NCBI GenBank assembly: GCA_904419545.1 | Contig: CAJFRY010000021.1 | Span: forward strand, 1-64,000 | Length of the DNA stretch: 64,000 nt | Reading direction: 5' to 3' | Source of the DNA: Candidatus Woodwardiibium gallinarum | GTDB lineage: Bacteria; Bacillota; Clostridia; Oscillospirales; CAG-382 | In this document: positions 1-11,892 of the stretch, piece after piece | How positions within the stretch are numbered: position 1 is the stretch's first letter | How the letters are laid out: each line of letters begins with the position of its first letter | Made by a program: the position numbers and the translations under genes | Notes under the pieces: generated by a model | What the model saw: the letters and a program-made list of their open reading frames with translations, nothing else | The model's database searches: none | What the model was told of the DNA's origin: nothing

Positions 1-1041
1 GGGATAGAGAAAAGACGAGCAAGAAGCTTAAAGAAAAAAAGAAGTCGGCAAAGTCACCCGCTGCCTAATCCCTTCGGCCTTTTCTCTCCTTTTATGCCCC
101 ACGCCGGCAAAGCCGGCGTGGGGCATTGGAGAAAGGCGGCGCATGATAAAATAAGTTCCGTTTTGTGCGAATCCCCGACGCCCGCATAGCGGACGAGGGG
201 GATAGAGAAGAAATAAGCAAAAAGCTTTAAGAAATACGACGGCAAAACAACCCGCCTTTTAATCTCTTTGGCCTTTTCTCTCCTATTATGCCCCACGTCG
301 GCTTTGCCGACGTGGGGCATAAAAGAATAAACAACGCGGCCAAAGCCAACCAATATTCCACCCAATTCAGCGCTATCTCTTTCCTATGCCTTACGCCGGC
401 AAAGCCGGCGTAAGGCATAGAATGAAAATAACGTTGTTTTATAAGTTCCGCTTTACGCGAATGCCCAACGCCCGCTACGCGGGTGTGGGACATACACATA
501 AACCCGTTTACTGTGTTATCCTTTGAATTCGAGCGTCGTCCCGCTGCGCGGGACGACGCTCGAAAAAGAAAAGCGGAATCGCAAACTTTCGTATATTCCC
601 TATGCCTAACGCCGACAAAGCCGGCGTTAGGCATATATATTTGAAATTTCCCGAATAGCATTATGCCTTTTCTCTCCTTTTTATGCCCCACGTCGGCAAA
701 GCCGACGTGGGGCATTGGAGGAGAACGGCGCACAATAAATAAGTTTCGTTTTACACGAATCCTCAACGCCCGCTATGCGGGCGTTGGGCATAAAAGGGAA
801 CGCGGCACGCATCAAAAAAGTGCTGTTTTTTACACAAATGTCCTACGCCCGCTATGCGGGCGTAGGACATAAAAAGTAAGAAATGCTTTTAAAGCCGACA
901 TTCAACCGATTCAACGCCATTCCCTTTCTACGCCTTACGCCGGCAAAGCCGGCGTAAGGCGTAGAGAAGAGATAAGCAAAAAGCCTAAAGAAATAAAGAA
1001 GCCAACAAAGTCACCCGCCGCCTAATCCCTTCGGCTTTTAT
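1..1041. repeat. Mosaic array of palindromic hairpin repeats (BIME-like)
   Basis: Eleven hairpins of 33-37 nt lie at 94-126, 171-203, 288-320, 386-418, 461-493, 528-564, 602-634, 683-715, 759-791, 838-870 and 928-964. Most have 15-17-bp arms around a 3-nt loop. Class A has a GGC-AAA-GCC centre, as in ATGCCCCACGCCGGC and its complement. Class B has a CCCGC-TAY-GCGGG centre. Arm sequences differ between copies but the two arms change together, so pairing is kept. A plus B dyads recur at 94-203, 386-493 and 683-791, about 295 bp apart, with a related spacer (ATAAGTTCCG core) before class B. A third block of about 80 bp recurs at 3-82, 204-272 and 965-1041. The left edge begins inside such a block, so the array continues outside the window. 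No protein-coding gene is supported here and no RAYT-type transposase is present. Confidence 0.85.
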
Positions 1042-1224
1042 CGGGCATTCAGCCTGTCGAACAAGGGGTTGCGGGATTTCACCTATGCTTCGCTTACGGG
1101 CGCTCGCCCTTCAAAATCCTCTTTTCCAGAACTTTTTGAGGATTTTCAGGGGACTTTTTCCAAAAAGTTCCCTGAATGGGGTTTGGCGCAAAGCCCCAAT
1201 AGAACTTTTTGACAGTCCGGCATA
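1042..1224. other. Noncoding stretch with further inverted repeats
   Basis: No gene is supported. There is a 13-bp near-perfect inverted repeat at 1147-1174 (CAGGGGACTTTTT against AAAAAGTTCCCTG) and a GGGG-TTT/AAA-GCCCC hairpin at 1178-1197. AGAACTTTTTGA occurs directly repeated at 1128-1139 and 1201-1212. This looks like the right border of the repeat array or a decayed small element. Confidence 0.5.
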
Positions 1225-1253
1225 TTGCTTTTCAGTCTGTTTTTTGCTATAAT
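1225..1253 (+). promoter_or_regulatory. Sigma-A-like promoter
   Basis: TTGCTT (1225-1230) and TATAAT (1248-1253) are separated by 17 nt. No open frame with a ribosome binding site follows, so it may drive the candidate RNA at 1260-1531. Confidence 0.5.
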
Positions 1254-2617: not shown

Positions 2618-3952
2618 ATGAAAAAAGCATTTTGCCTGCTGCTGGCAATCCTGCTGGCGGCGCCGCTGTGGACGCTTCCCGGAACGGCTGCCGGTGAAAA
2701 GCCGGTCATTACGGCGCCGGCCGACGGGAACGTACTGGCGGCGGGTGACGTAACAATCCACTGGACAGCGGTATCCGGCGCGGACTACTACACGGTCAAC
2801 ATCCGCTACATTGAAAATGGGGAGAACGGGCCGCTCGCGGCGAATGCCGTACCCGTGGACGGAACGTCCTACACACTGCCCGAAGAGACGACGGCCGCGT
2901 TGGGGAACGGCGCATACCGCATCTGTGTCGCATCGGTCCACGGGACAGAAGTGCGCTATTCGGACACGGTAACGTTCCGGCTTGCGGATGGAAACGAGCC
3001 GCTGCTCGGCAAAAAGGCGGTCTTTTTCGGGGACAGTCTGACGGCTTCGTTCGGCTGGTGCCGGCAGCTTGCGCTGCGCTTTGGGCTGGAAGCCGTCAAC
3101 GCGGGCGTAGGCGGCGAGACGTCGGAGATGGCACGGGCGCGGTTCGAAGCCGACGTGCTGGCGCAGTCGCCCGATTACGTGTTCATCTGCTTCGGGATGA
3201 ACGACCAGGTGCACGCCGACCACAGGAACCCGCGGGTATCGGTCGAACGCTTTGCGGAGAACATCACCTATTTTGTCACCGAAGCGCAGCGGGCCGATGC
3301 AGAGGTAATTCTGATTACGCCAAATTGCGTGGAAGAGTCAGGCTATTATACCAACCCGGTCCATCCGGAAAGCGACTACACGGCTTACGGCGGGGTCAAT
3401 GCCTATCTCAACCGTTACTGCGCCAAGGTGCGCGAAATCGCCTCCGCATATGGAACAGGGCTTGTCGACCTATTCGCGGAATTCTGGGGCAGGGACCTTA
3501 CCCTGCTGCTCGAGCCGGCAGGCCTCCATCCGATTCAGGCAGGCTACAACCTCTATGCAGACTGCGCAGGCGCTTATTTACAGGCGCGGTATGTAGAAGA
3601 CAACGTGGTGGCGACGACGGTGCGGTTCGTATCGATCACAGGCAGAGTCGAACCGGAGCTGTGTCTGCTGACGGCGCCGGGGGCAAGAGTCTGGCTTACC
3701 GCTCCAAACGGAACCGGCGGCACAGTCCATACGATGCAGACGACGAAACTCCTGCGCATTCTGCTTGCGGCAGCGAGCGGCGACGTCAATCTGGACGGCG
3801 CAACGACGGTGGCGGACTATCTGCTGCTCAAGCGGCACTTTGTGCTTTCTCAAACGCTCGGGCCGGAAAGCCAACGCAACGGCGACGTCAACGGAGACGG
3901 AAGGCTGACACCGGCGGACTACCTGGGACTCAAGCGTATGCTGCTCGGCTGA
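2618..3952 (+). CDS. Secreted SGNH/GDSL esterase with N-terminal Fn3-like and C-terminal dockerin domains
   Basis: 444 residues starting at an ATG seven bases after AAAAAGGAG; an upstream in-frame ATG at 2465 lacks a binding site. Order of parts: a signal peptide of about 24 residues, a fibronectin III-like beta domain (about 28-120), an SGNH hydrolase domain with GDSLTASF near residue 137, GGET, FGMNDQ and a GLHPIQAGY block carrying the catalytic His, then a beta-rich stretch and two dockerin type I repeats (GDVNLDGATTVADYLLLKR and GDVNGDGRLTPADYLGLKR). It probably deacylates extracellular carbohydrate and docks to a cohesin partner that is not in this window. Confidence 0.9.
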   Translation: MKKAFCLLLAILLAAPLWTLPGTAAGEKPVITAPADGNVLAAGDVTIHWTAVSGADYYTVNIRYIENGENGPLAANAVPVDGTSYTLPEETTAALGNGAYRICVASVHGTEVRYSDTVTFRLADGNEPLLGKKAVFFGDSLTASFGWCRQLALRFGLEAVNAGVGGETSEMARARFEADVLAQSPDYVFICFGMNDQVHADHRNPRVSVERFAENITYFVTEAQRADAEVILITPNCVEESGYYTNPVHPESDYTAYGGVNAYLNRYCAKVREIASAYGTGLVDLFAEFWGRDLTLLLEPAGLHPIQAGYNLYADCAGAYLQARYVEDNVVATTVRFVSITGRVEPELCLLTAPGARVWLTAPNGTGGTVHTMQTTKLLRILLAAASGDVNLDGATTVADYLLLKRHFVLSQTLGPESQRNGDVNGDGRLTPADYLGLKRMLLG

Positions 3953-3964
3953 AAGCAAAAAAGA

Positions 3965-3993
3965 GGGGCGGACTTATGTCCGCCCCGTTTTGC
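3965..3993. terminator. Bidirectional intrinsic terminator
   Basis: GGGGCGGAC-TTAT-GTCCGCCCC (3965-3986) has a T-run after it on the plus strand and TCTTTTTT after it on the minus strand. It sits between two convergent genes and can serve both. Confidence 0.85.
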
Positions 3994-4001
3994 TTAATCA
4001 G

Positions 4002-5510
4002 CTATTTTGTAAAAGTATCGATGGTCGCATCAATCGCCGCCTGGAAGGAATCCCGCTTTGATTCATAAGAAGAGATGATATCCGAGCTTGTCTGCCCGAT
4101 CATACCGGTGTAGAACTGCAGCATGCCCGCCGTCGGTCCTGCCCAGTCATAAACGGCGCCGAGATCAAAGGTACGGTTTTGGAACAGGAGGTCGAGCATC
4201 CGCTCATCCTCGGGGTCTTCCATCCGCTTGAGCTTGAGCGTCTTATCATAATACTCGTACGTACACATTTCCTGCCCATAATAGGCCATGGCTTCGAGCA
4301 GGTAGCAGGTCGCATCCAACTTCTCTACATTAGAGGTCGGAATCGAGAAGAAGGTCGCATAGTACACGGTACAGGAGGTTGCATACTCTTCCTGGTTCTC
4401 GTCCAGCTTCGGCATCGGCAGGATACCAAAACGGACATCCGAATTGTTCATCGCTTCGCCGTCCAGAACGGTGATGGCGCCGGGCATAAAGGCAGCATTG
4501 CCATTTGTAAAGATCTGCGATTCATTTTCATACATATCCGCCCAATTCCCGAACAGGTCGGCCACGCCGACACAGGACTTGTCATACAGCATCTCGCTGA
4601 TGGTCTGCCAGGCACTGACGTTGCGCTCATCAAGAATACGCATAATGGGCAGGTCATCCTCATCCTTGGTGATCATCGCCTGCTCGGCGCCCCACATAAA
4701 GGCCAAGCCGTCATACGCCTGCGCGACCATACCCCAGATATCGCCGTCGCCCGGCTCATAGGACATCGTATCGCCGGAGCTGACCTTGGTGGCTACCGAT
4801 TTGCACATTTCGTAAAGCGCATCAACGGTCCACGTCCCCGCGTCGACCAGCTCCACGGGGCTGGTGAGACCATAGTCTTCCAGAAGGTCCTTGTTGTAGT
4901 ACAGCGCCCAGGTCGCCGCGTTGTCGGAAACAACCGCCTCGCCTGTGATGTAATAGAGCTTGTTGGCAATCGCAAGATCTTCAATTGCCGACTGATCCCA
5001 GTAATCGGCGTTGAGATCGATATAGCCGTTGTCAATGTCGTAATAATTCCAGAAATACTCCTGTGTGCCGAGCTTGGTCAAGTACGTAATACCGTCGGCC
5101 ACAAGGTCATATTCGCTCAAGCCGGCAATGATCTGCTGTTCGATCTCATTAGTCGGCGCACCAATGCCGCCTTCCGTAAAATGAACCTGCGTCGTCAGAC
5201 CGTATTCCTCCTCCAGCAGATTGGTACGCTCCTGAAACGCGGTACTGACATTATCGCTCTCAATCTCGGTTTCCTGAGCAGGCGTGCCGAACTCATAGAG
5301 CGCGTAATCGCGTGCGTTATGGGTAAGGATATTAATCGTTACCCCCCCCCAGTCCTGTTTTTCGAGCCGGAAACCTTCCGTTTCGGTACTCGTAGTACCG
5401 GAAGCCGCAGCGCTCGAGGTTTCCCCGGTCTCCGTATCGCAGGCCGCAGCGAGCGTCGCAAGCATCAGCACGGCAAGCAGCAGACAGAGAATCTTCGCTG
5501 TTTTCTTCAT
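4002..5510 (-). CDS. Extracellular solute-binding lipoprotein (SBP1)
   Basis: 502 residues with a lipoprotein signal (lysines, hydrophobic core, LATLAAAC lipobox) followed by a Ser/Thr/Glu linker. The rest resembles sugar-type ABC substrate-binding proteins, with conserved LADYWDQ/ALYYNKDLLEDYGL and WTVDALYEMCK segments. The start was chosen at the MKKTAK methionine. No permease or ATPase gene lies next to it, so the transport partner is elsewhere or absent. A broken paralogue lies directly upstream (5665-7296) and a third copy is at 38168-39640. It has its own promoter and shares the terminator at 3965. Confidence 0.85.
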   Translation of the reverse strand: MKKTAKILCLLLAVLMLATLAAACDTETGETSSAAASGTTSTETEGFRLEKQDWGGVTINILTHNARDYALYEFGTPAQETEIESDNVSTAFQERTNLLEEEYGLTTQVHFTEGGIGAPTNEIEQQIIAGLSEYDLVADGITYLTKLGTQEYFWNYYDIDNGYIDLNADYWDQSAIEDLAIANKLYYITGEAVVSDNAATWALYYNKDLLEDYGLTSPVELVDAGTWTVDALYEMCKSVATKVSSGDTMSYEPGDGDIWGMVAQAYDGLAFMWGAEQAMITKDEDDLPIMRILDERNVSAWQTISEMLYDKSCVGVADLFGNWADMYENESQIFTNGNAAFMPGAITVLDGEAMNNSDVRFGILPMPKLDENQEEYATSCTVYYATFFSIPTSNVEKLDATCYLLEAMAYYGQEMCTYEYYDKTLKLKRMEDPEDERMLDLLFQNRTFDLGAVYDWAGPTAGMLQFYTGMIGQTSSDIISSYESKRDSFQAAIDATIDTFTK

Positions 5511-5664: not shown

Positions 5665-7296
5665 TCAGGCGCCTGGCGAAACGTTGTCCCAAGCCTGCCG
5701 GATGGATTCCGCCGCATCTTCCAGCGCCGCCTGAAAGGCATCCTTTTGACTCTCATAGGCCGGAAGAAGGTCGGCGGTGGAACTGCCGAGCAGACTTGTA
5801 TAAAAGCCTCCCAACCCGAACTTGACCTCATCCGGTAAATAAAGTGCACCGAGATCATAGGCGCGGCGGGAAAGCACGGACGCAAGCATACGCATATTCC
5901 TCTCCGCTTCGGACGGTGAAGCGTCTGCCAGTTCATCCAGATAGACATCACTGCACATTTCCTTGCCATAGCATGCCATCGCTTCCAGCAGACAGCAGGC
6001 GGCTGCAGGTTCCGGATTCGTGCCGGGAACGGCAAAGAAGGTTGTCCGATACGCGTCGACCGGGGAAATGTAATCCGCCTGCCGCTCGTCCAGCTTAGGC
6101 AACGGCAGAAGGCCGAGCGAAAAAGAAACACAATCCGGCATCCCGGTCTCAAGAAGCGAGAGCGGCCCGGGCATAAAAAGTGCGCTTCCTTCCGTAAAGA
6201 ACGTATACATATTCTCCACAACGGCGCTCGGCTTGCCGTAATTCTCTGCCACGCCGATGCAGCTTTTATCTGTCAGCATCGCGGCAATTTTCTGCCATGC
6301 AGCGACGTTCCGCGCATCGTCGAGACGAAGAACGGGTCGATCGGATGCGTCCTTTTCGGTCTTCGTCTGTTCCGCGGCATACATCAGGGCGCTGCCAGTC
6401 CAAGCGGGGCAGACCATGCCCCAGATATCGCCGTCTTCCGGTTCAAAAGACATATAGAACCCGTCGCTGACCCAAGTCGCAGTCTGTCTGCACATCTCAT
6501 ACAGCGCGTCGACCGTCCAATTCCCCTCTTCAACCAGCTCGACAGGATCGGCGAGTTCGTTTTTCTCCAGAAGATCACGGTTACAGTACAGTACAACCGT
6601 AGCAGCGTCATCGGAAGCAACCGCATCGCCGGTCAGAACCGTTAACCGCCCGTCATAAGTCAGCGCCCGGACGGCGTCCTAATCCCAATAATCCGCACCG
6701 AGGTCGAGACAGCCTTCCCCGATCTCATAAAAATCCTGCAAAACACCCGCCATATTGGGCTGAAGCAGAAAGAACAGCCCATCCGCAACAAGTTGATAAT
6801 CATCAAGGCCGGCAAGGTGCTGCTGCAGGATGGTATCCGCCGCCTCGCCAATCCCTTCTGTCAGCGTCACTTCGGCAACCAGGCCGTATTCCCGTTCGAT
6901 CCGTTCGGCGCGCTGCCGAAACGCCGTGCTGATCGCATCGGCATGCGACTCATCTTTCAATCCCGAGACACCGTATTCATACAGCGAATGCCCGCCGCAG
7001 CTTGCGGCAAGGATATCAACAGTCATACCGCACCAATCCCGGTATATATCGGGAAAACCGCCTTCCGCCGCTTCAGATACGGCCGGGCTTTCCGAAATCG
7101 TGCTTTCGGCAACATCGGAAACGGTTTCTTCCAAAACGCCGGAAACGCACTCTGCGCCTATGGAAACGACCGCCGCGCCGCCGGAACCGGCAGATTCGGA
7201 TTCCCTTGCCTGTTCAACGGTATCGCAGGCAGCGAGCAGGGACACCGCAAAGACAAACGCCAAAAGCAGCGAAACGGAACGCAGGATCTTTTTCAT
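5665..7296 (-). pseudogene. Solute-binding lipoprotein paralogue interrupted by an in-frame TAG
   Basis: The reading frame from MKKILRSVS (lipobox LLAAC) matches SBP1 along its length but is cut by one TAG at 6681-6679. The frame then continues without shift to a TGA at 5665. In SBP1 the aligned segment is DADYWDQ-like (NADYWDQSAIED); here it is GADYWD-stop-DAVRA, so the stop replaces the glutamine codon, a single CAG to TAG change. The downstream part keeps WTVDALYEMC and EPEDGDIWGM motifs. It has a consensus-like promoter. A recent nonsense mutation or a base-calling error are both possible. Confidence 0.8.
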
Positions 7297-10051: not shown

Positions 10052-10876
10052 ATGAACGAATATGACATTGCAGCGGCATATATTAAAGAACGGATCGCCG
10101 TTTCGCTCGGCGATTTCCGCCCCGAGCTGGCCATCATCTTAGGCAGCGGGCTGGGCGGGCTGGCCGACGAAGTGGAAACGCCGGTGGTGATTCCCTACGG
10201 CGACATTCCCGGCTTTTCGGTTTCAACGGCGCCCAACCACCGCGGACGGCTGGTCGTCGGTCTGCTTGGCGGACGGCGGGTAATCTGTATGCAGGGACGG
10301 CTGCACTACTACGAGGGGCACAGCATGCAGCGCATCATCTTTCCGGTACGCGTATTCGCGCGGCTCGGCGTCGGCAAGCTGATCGTGACCAACGCGGCGG
10401 GCGGTATCAAACGTGATTTTACAGTCGGCGACATTATGCTCATCGACGATCACATCAATCTACAGGGGACAAACCCGCTCGTCGGTCCGAACGACGACAG
10501 CTTCGGCGAGCGGTTCTGCGACATGACCTTCGTTTACGACCCCGAGATGAAGGAAGCGGCGCTGCGCGCGGCCGAAAAGGCCGGCGTTCCGCTGCGGCGG
10601 GGCGTGTACATCGCGGTGACGGGGCCTTCCTACGAGACGCCGGCGGAGATACGCGCTTTCCGCGCACTGGGCGCGGACGCGGTGGGGATGTCTACGGTGC
10701 CGGAGGTCATCGCAGCCTCGCATGCGGGTATGAAGGTGCTGGGCTTTTCGCTGATCACAAACATGGCGGCAGGCATCCTCAAGGTACGGCTGTCGGGCGA
10801 CGAGGTCATCGCCGTTGGCGAGCGGCAGTCGAAGGTACTCGTCGGGCTGGTGCGTGCGGTCGTTGAAGCACTATGA
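10052..10876 (+). CDS. Purine nucleoside phosphorylase, 6-oxopurine type
   Basis: 274 residues of the trimeric PNP/MTAP family: GSGLGG phosphate loop (31-36), MQGRLHYYEGH, NAAGGI, GPSYETP with E195 and SLITNMAAG with N237. The Glu/Asn pair is typical of enzymes acting on 6-oxopurines (inosine, guanosine); MTA phosphorylases usually carry Asp instead of this Asn. That fits a preceding deaminase and predicts phosphorolysis of 5'-methylthioinosine or 5'-deoxyinosine to hypoxanthine and the sugar 1-phosphate. The ATG at 10052 follows GAAAGGA. Its end overlaps mtnA by ATGA. Ordinary purine salvage is the alternative role. Confidence 0.88.
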   Translation: MNEYDIAAAYIKERIAVSLGDFRPELAIILGSGLGGLADEVETPVVIPYGDIPGFSVSTAPNHRGRLVVGLLGGRRVICMQGRLHYYEGHSMQRIIFPVRVFARLGVGKLIVTNAAGGIKRDFTVGDIMLIDDHINLQGTNPLVGPNDDSFGERFCDMTFVYDPEMKEAALRAAEKAGVPLRRGVYIAVTGPSYETPAEIRAFRALGADAVGMSTVPEVIAASHAGMKVLGFSLITNMAAGILKVRLSGDEVIAVGERQSKVLVGLVRAVVEAL

Positions 10877-11892
10877 ACGCCTGTCATGAAGATCTGACGC
10901 TGTGGCTGGACGAGGACAGCGACGAGCTGATCATCCTCGACCAGACGAAACTGCCGGGCAAAGAAGAGACGGTCTCCATCTCGACCGCACGGGCGCTGTA
11001 TGACGCCATCCGCACGCTTCAGGTGCGTGGCGCACCGGCCATCGGCGTGGCGGCGGCTTTAGGACTGTACGCCTGCGCCGTCCGGTTTGAGGACGAAACG
11101 CCGGAGGGATTTTTGTACTCCCTGCGCAAAACAAAAGCGTTCATTGCCTCCGCGCGGCCGACAGCGCAGAACCTGTTCTGGGCGCTGGAACGGATCGAGA
11201 AAGCTGCGGACGGCGGCACAATTCAGGAAATGCTGACACACATGCGGACCGAAGCGTCAGCGATTTTTGAAGAGGACATCGCGATTTGCCGCGCCATAGG
11301 CGAGCACGGCCTCTCACTTCTCAAGGATGGCGACACACTGCTGACCCACTGCAATGCGGGACGGCTGGCAGCGGTAAAATACGGCACCGCGCTCGCCCCG
11401 GTCTACGCAGGAATGGAGCGCGGGATGCACTTTCAGGTTTACGCCGACGAGACGCGGCCGCTTTTGCAGGGTGCGCGGCTGACCTGCTACGAGCTGCACA
11501 GGGCCGGCGCGGACGTGACGCTGCTCTGCGACGGGATGGCGGCGCGTCTGATGCAGGAAGGAAAAATCGACGCGGTGATCGTCGGATGCGACCGTGTGGC
11601 GCGCAATTACGATTTTGCCAACAAGACCGGCACGCTGTCGCTGGCCGTCAACGCCAAATTTTTCGGGGTGCCGTTCTACGTGGCTGCGCCGAGTCCGACG
11701 TTCGACGCCGGCTGCGCGACCGGCGAAGACATCGTCATCGAACAGAGGCCGGGAGAAGAAATAACCGAAGGTTTCTTTTCCGCACGGACGGCGCCGGAGG
11801 GAATCGGCGTCTATAACCCGGCGTTTGACGTCATCCCGCACACACTGGTAAGCGCATTCATTACGGAAAAAGGAGTGATACGCCTTGGATAA
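10873..11892 (+). CDS. mtnA: S-methyl-5-thioribose-1-phosphate isomerase
   Basis: 339 residues. The two catalytic residues of the family are at the canonical positions: C160 in LLTHCNAGRLA and D240 in VGCDRVARNYDFANKTGT. RGAPAIGVAAALG is also present. It converts 5-methylthioribose 1-phosphate, and in related organisms 5-deoxyribose 1-phosphate, to the ribulose 1-phosphate. It overlaps the phosphorylase stop codon (ATGA) and the aldolase start by 8 nt, so the three are translationally coupled. Confidence 0.93.
   Translation: MNACHEDLTLWLDEDSDELIILDQTKLPGKEETVSISTARALYDAIRTLQVRGAPAIGVAAALGLYACAVRFEDETPEGFLYSLRKTKAFIASARPTAQNLFWALERIEKAADGGTIQEMLTHMRTEASAIFEEDIAICRAIGEHGLSLLKDGDTLLTHCNAGRLAAVKYGTALAPVYAGMERGMHFQVYADETRPLLQGARLTCYELHRAGADVTLLCDGMAARLMQEGKIDAVIVGCDRVARNYDFANKTGTLSLAVNAKFFGVPFYVAAPSPTFDAGCATGEDIVIEQRPGEEITEGFFSARTAPEGIGVYNPAFDVIPHTLVSAFITEKGVIRLG

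Follow-up and report, generated by a model that had tools for sequence, protein, structure and literature searches.

A BIME-like mosaic of near-perfect hairpins and recurring spacer modules in a Clostridia genome

The genome of Candidatus Woodwardiibium gallinarum contains intergenic arrays in which short palindromes alternate with recurring spacer modules. The modules form a dispersed mosaic, the hairpin arms carry compensated changes, loops are inverted on unchanged arms, and broken stem pairs show no strand bias. We regard it as probable that these arrays are a non-coding, non-autonomous, BIME-like intergenic repeat, in which palindromes join the modules, are kept perfect by template switching and are shuffled by recombination. 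From these patterns we infer both the cause, template switching during replication, and the means of shuffling, recombination.

Hairpins and spacers at the start of the window

The window, a stretch of 64,000 nucleotides, opens with one such array at 1-1041, which is also the first kilobase of contig C21 (the array starts at C21:1), so that the left end of the array is unseen. The eleven hairpins with 3-nt loops of the original prediction were confirmed, at the coordinates given below. Seven have perfect stems of 15-18 bp and the remaining four carry 1-3 mismatches; perfect 12-bp hairpins with a 3-nt loop number seven, against none in 500 composition-preserving shuffles of 1-1041, and an excess of 5-nt loops in the same test appears to consist of 3-nt-loop stems counted one pair short. 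Folded as single-stranded DNA, positions 90-970 lie 21 standard deviations below dinucleotide shuffles (n = 20).

Read from the left, with all spacers on the plus strand, the array begins with a spacer of class a cut by the contig start (1-93, matching the ends of contigs C35 and C2 at 100% identity), followed by hairpin A (94-126; 15 bp, loop AAA), spacer b (127-170; 10 members in the genome), hairpin B (171-203; 3 mismatches, loop ATA) and a second spacer a (204-285). Hairpin A then recurs (286-322; 17 bp, loop TTT) with the arms of the copy at 683-715 and the loop inverted, and is followed by spacer c (323-383; 7 members), hairpin C (384-420; 17 bp, loop AAA), spacer f (421-460; 4 members, 98% identity), hairpin B (461-493; 3 mismatches, loop TAC) and spacer g (494-527; 3 members). 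Hairpin D (528-564; 17 bp, loop TGC) has a counterpart on contig C4 with the same arms and loop GCA, and one on contig C2 with a compensated arm change. Beyond it lie spacer e (565-600; 5 members), hairpin E (601-635; one A.C mismatch, loop AAA), spacer d (636-682; 6 members), hairpin A (683-715; 15 bp, loop AAA), spacer b (716-758), hairpin B (759-791; 2 mismatches, loop TAT), spacer h (792-837; 3 members, 99% identity), hairpin B' (838-870; 15 bp, loop TAT), a diverged spacer c (871-926), hairpin C (927-965; 18 bp, loop AAA) and a last spacer a (966-1040), and the stretch 942-1040 matches the start of contig C41 at 100% identity. The spacer classes were assigned by clustering. The right flank (1041-1244, plus strand) is a dispersed intergenic repeat, F1, spanning about 1050-1244 and 91-92% identical to copies on C4 and C35; where it meets the array, TCGGGCAT, read by eye, is probably what is left of a hairpin arm.

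This layout agrees with several features that had been predicted. The block of about 80 bp said to recur three times is spacer a at 1-93, 204-285 and 966-1040, and the class-specific spacers are supported by the clustering. The predicted A-B dyads do repeat, with starts at 94/171, 386/461 and 683/759, 290-298 bp apart; the label itself is slightly loose, because the first hairpin of the middle dyad, which follows spacer c, is of another class than in the outer two. The contig-end start of the array and the several further arrays in the genome had been missed.

Open reading frames within the array were judged spurious because they cross palindromes, and the first Pfam-supported protein gene to its right, encoding a DUF4434 protein, starts beyond 1.5 kb. 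Further into the window, 4558-4946 and 6245-6633 are 67% identical DNA inside two adjacent minus-strand genes, which are lipoprotein solute-binding-like and probably paralogous to each other. L014 has a comparable pair, at 1487-2447 and 3038-3992.

Arrays across the genome and their module order

The genome assembly measures 2.32 Mb in 69 contigs and is 98.6% complete, and its fragmentation and neighbours suggest that it is metagenome-assembled; the nearest outside relative of its ThiI, 64% identical, is from a Clostridiales MAG (UBA1206), and the next are from other gut Clostridia and Ruminococcus MAGs. The window array gives 65 blastn matches in its own genome. A covariance model of the 33-nt hairpin gave 130 matches over both strands, from which 67 sites were counted by hand on contigs C2, C4, C9, C19, C21, C26, C29, C41, C46 and C54, such genome-wide counts being drawn from model searches and selected stretches. 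Most of these short extragenic palindromes are grouped in about nine intergenic arrays, which lie outside Pfam-supported genes. Eight contig ends fall inside the repeat, and the actual number of sites is therefore probably higher than 67. Such ends are also what one would expect if the arrays were an assembly artefact of a repeat that breaks assembly, a reading we consider barely credible given that copies differ by about 13% and that contigs C2, C4 and C46 have arrays in their interior.

The genes beside the arrays are unrelated to one another (DUF4434, AI-2E transporter/ThiI, MR_MLE enolase, DUF6259, HAD hydrolase, GH2 and HxlR), and most of them, judged by ORF positions, point their 3' end to the array, the enolase and HAD genes being exceptions. 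Colinear blocks of about 500 bp on C4 and C2 are 87% identical and are set among such unrelated genes, the AI-2E transporter/ThiI on the one and the MR_MLE enolase on the other. Another array, at about 12170-13000 of contig C19 (L024 ~4170-5000), has another stem type (...GCCGC-NNN-GCGGC...) and is partially repeated in tandem, at offsets of about 270-470 bp. On C4, repeats of about 75-130 bp occur in both orientations at L009:8447-8635, 10861-11090 and 11754-11886, the first two blocks containing perfect hairpins of the form AAAGTTCAAGCGC-TTT (or AAA)-GCGCTTGAACTTT.

Cutting the arrays at their hairpins and clustering the pieces yields eight multi-copy spacer classes, a to h, with 17, 10, 7, 6, 5, 4, 3 and 3 members and mean identities of 84-99% (84% for the 17 members of class a). 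The spacer modules measure 34-90 nt, and the palindromes between them about 33-44 nt, with a 3-nt loop and the core NACGCC[G/C]GC. The larger arrays have overlapping module orders, each a different walk through one module set: a b a c f g e d b h c a in the window, c f g e d b k a b on C4, a c f g e d a b on C2, a b a b h c a b in array C46c and b h c f d b a on C54. The next module varies, with a followed by b or c, b by a, h, k or the flank F2, and d by b or a, and these switches of partner fall at a hairpin or at its pyrimidine-rich foot; in array C46a one piece, read by eye, seems to be chimeric, with e fused to an inverted f. The ends of arrays adjoin two further dispersed repeats. F1 has copies in the window, on C4 and on C35, the latter two joined straight to a B hairpin; it contains a AGGGAACTTTTTCCAAAAAGTTCCCT-type hairpin, and another Clostridia MAG (L068) carries a 68-bp part of it at 82-87% identity. 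F2 (GGCGGCTTGCCCTATAAGG...) occurs on C2, C9, C26 and C46 (L010:7660-7800, L016:6844-7042, L017:7120-7317 and L012:12716-12816), and stands inverted at both ends of the C2 array, where the right end has only about 40 bp of it, hairpin included.

A further reading is a cluster of integron attC sites (CALIN), or some other array for site-specific recombination, since the GCCTAAC/GTTAGGC-like boxes in some stems resemble attC R boxes. We give this reading almost no weight, since the stems are near-perfect and have no extrahelical bases, no long cassette genes lie between the hairpins, and no integron integrase scored over the cut-off; the TIGR02249 matches are far below it and are probably other tyrosine recombinases.

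Outside this genome, the covariance model found no match in 62 genomes of the same family and no array in 294 others sampled from the order, where it gave just two single weak matches (L115 and L116); one of these lacks any perfect stem of at least 9 bp around a 3-nt loop, the second is an isolated terminator-like hairpin, and both were rejected. Neither 84,980 species genomes nor IMG/VR contain the exact degenerate 33-nt pattern, and blastn found no DNA similarity in phage and plasmid records, although the genome, phage and plasmid collections searched may omit very near records. Uniqueness of the array to its locus would have told against the original prediction; it is not unique, copies being dispersed in its own genome. 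The relatives searched are without arrays. The family appears to be a lineage-specific expansion.

Covariation, mismatches and loops

We turn to the arms of the hairpins, in which matched changes had been predicted. First of all, over 42 distinct hairpins, 11 of the 15 stem pairs show two-sided changes, a result that none of 500 shuffles equals. Paired cells make up 95.2% (82.9% shuffled), two-sided cells number 77 (25.4 shuffled) and the covariation score is 0.349 (0.127 shuffled), in each case with 0 of 500 shuffles as good, and sliding the 3' partners by 1-3 columns abolishes the covariation. Pair 7-27 takes all four Watson-Crick forms (A-T 15, T-A 13, C-G 6, G-C 4) with no G-T, that is, without a wobble intermediate, and pair 13 is C-G in 21 sequences and G-C in 21, in keeping with the prediction of at least two hairpin classes. 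A8, C9, C12, G14 and C15 are near-fixed, which could reflect recognition by a protein. Arrays maintained by selection as binding sites for a DNA protein (a nucleoid protein, a gyrase- or IHF-like protein or a dimeric regulator) would fit these near-invariant positions and the dyad symmetry, and gyrase, IHF and Pol I are bound by the BIMEs of E. coli (PMC2817692). However, position 7 varies among all four pairs and position 13 between two, which leaves much of the half-site unconstrained; there is, moreover, no candidate protein, and the repeat is absent from all relatives tested, all of which makes such a role rather improbable.

Second, in arrays oriented by their spacers, the broken stem pairs comprise 17 G.T and 18 A.C, with no strand bias. 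Frequent GT pairing in REP stems has been used as an argument for transcription and RNA function (PMC3733652), and a structured RNA, whether an sRNA, a 3' UTR stabiliser or a terminator, should favour G.T on the RNA strand. Such an RNA had been among the options of the original prediction, and the great stability of the fold and the position of several arrays downstream of genes would suit it. We find it very unlikely all the same, since, in addition to the mismatch balance, the loops occur in both reverse-complement forms, Rfam gave no family at the gathering score and only sub-threshold matches, nearly all to microRNA models, and terminator-like sites (a hairpin, then a T-run) number three where shuffles lead one to expect 3.5.

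Third, 55 of 57 loops fall into five reverse-complement pairs (AAA/TTT, TGT/ACA, GCA/TGC, ATA/TAT and TAC/GTA), which cover 10 of the 12 loop types (P of about 0.002 under a composition null). Identical arms carry opposite loops, AAA in one copy and TTT in another, and likewise TGC and GCA. Template switching is reported to produce multi-base compensatory changes and fully inverted loops (PMC8794818) and, as outlined in PMC8604942, homogenises the arms of inverted repeats and inverts their spacers; recombination between inverted copies could be an alternative source of the loop flips. The mismatch balance and the reverse-complement loops together favour template switching or palindrome recombination at the level of DNA over a function in RNA, and they make covariation in these hairpins weak evidence of a selected structure. 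It had been proposed that the structure itself seems to be kept; covariation by itself does not warrant this, as template switching in replication gives the same pattern (PMC8794818 and, in outline, PMC8604942).

In homologous hairpin sets, pairwise comparisons give more one-sided (176) than two-sided (137) differences, so that correction of the arms is not instantaneous; these comparisons lie within one MAG and set no ancestral states, and compensation in one step is therefore inseparable from two successive changes or conversion by another hairpin.

Relation to known repeats and proposed origin

The mosaic was predicted to be BIME-like, and it does share with the BIMEs and REPs of E. coli and Stenotrophomonas an intergenic palindrome mosaic, lettered modules between preserved palindromes and a restricted lineage range (PMC2817692), together with higher-order clusters and regular spacing. 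A true BIME, that is, a REP family mobilised by a RAYT/HUH enzyme whose copying Y1 transposase has disappeared or sits in sequence missing from the assembly, would account for this likeness, above all to the Stenotrophomonas BIMEs (PMC2817692), and for a repeat that is intergenic, high in copy and confined to one lineage. We hold it to be unlikely. As predicted, no RAYT was found: Y1_Tnp (PF01797) is absent from this 98.6% complete, 69-contig assembly, with a positive E. coli control, and no IS605 TnpB was found in the genome. Among 57 hairpins the foot tags GTAG, GTGG and CGTC occur 2, 0 and 0 times (3.4, 2.7 and 5.7 expected by chance), and the stems are perfect where REP stems are imperfect. 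With both the Y1 transposase and the GTAG/CGTC tag missing, we do not file the repeat as a RAYT-REP or BIME despite its architecture. Unlike BIMEs and REPs, it has no GT(A/G)G head, has near-perfect stems with 3-nt loops and eight spacer classes in long mosaics, resides in a Clostridia host and, at 67 sites, falls below the usual more than 100 copies of REPs; REP RAYTs that fit the criteria of PMC2817692 were found only in gammaproteobacteria. A transposase-less palindromic repeat has a precedent in the CGTC-tagged REPs, which likewise have no dedicated transposase (PMC3733652), although the CGTC tag is not found here (0 of 57). The mosaic looks like a lineage-specific, transposase-less cousin of the E. 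coli mosaic palindromic repeats.

Among Firmicutes, BOX in Streptococcus and STAR in Staphylococcus are modular, non-coding intergenic repeats with a variable number of modules; the repeat described here differs, by comparison of descriptions, in having many module classes joined by near-perfect hairpins. The mitochondrial double-hairpin or repetitive hairpin elements, as outlined in PMC2800124, are also short, intergenic and hairpin-forming, and, being organellar, are alike in general kind only.

In the origin that we propose, palindromes would fold during replication or repair, in single-stranded DNA or as cruciforms, and a polymerase switching template inside a palindrome would copy one arm onto the other and flip the loop, so that stems would stay perfect even as they change in sequence. 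New module orders, and the exchange of blocks between arrays, would come from breakage, template switching or homologous recombination at palindromes or palindrome feet. Local template switching does not account for dispersal to unlinked loci, and a lost or unrecognised transposase is a possible agent of the first move of the arrays there. A role as a mobile-element source, one of the options of the original prediction, may thus apply, dispersal being the part of it that the matches show. A broader reading, to which we assign a small chance, is that the repeat is RAYT-independent modular mobile DNA in Clostridia, in which recombination would join modules at near-perfect palindromes and a recombinase or transposase that has escaped recognition would spread them. 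Under the template-switching account that we prefer, we assign the array as a whole neither an RNA role nor one in termination, and we take it to be most probably selfish or neutral.

Selection for structure is the usual reading of compensated changes in stems. In these non-coding repeats, given the lack of strand bias and the inverted loops on unchanged arms, they are more likely the record of a mutational process. A BIME-like mosaic is present in a genome where no RAYT was found, and its roughly 67 sites are natural replicates, within one genome, for measuring template switching in bacteria. The main interest of the family lies in this natural record of palindrome correction.
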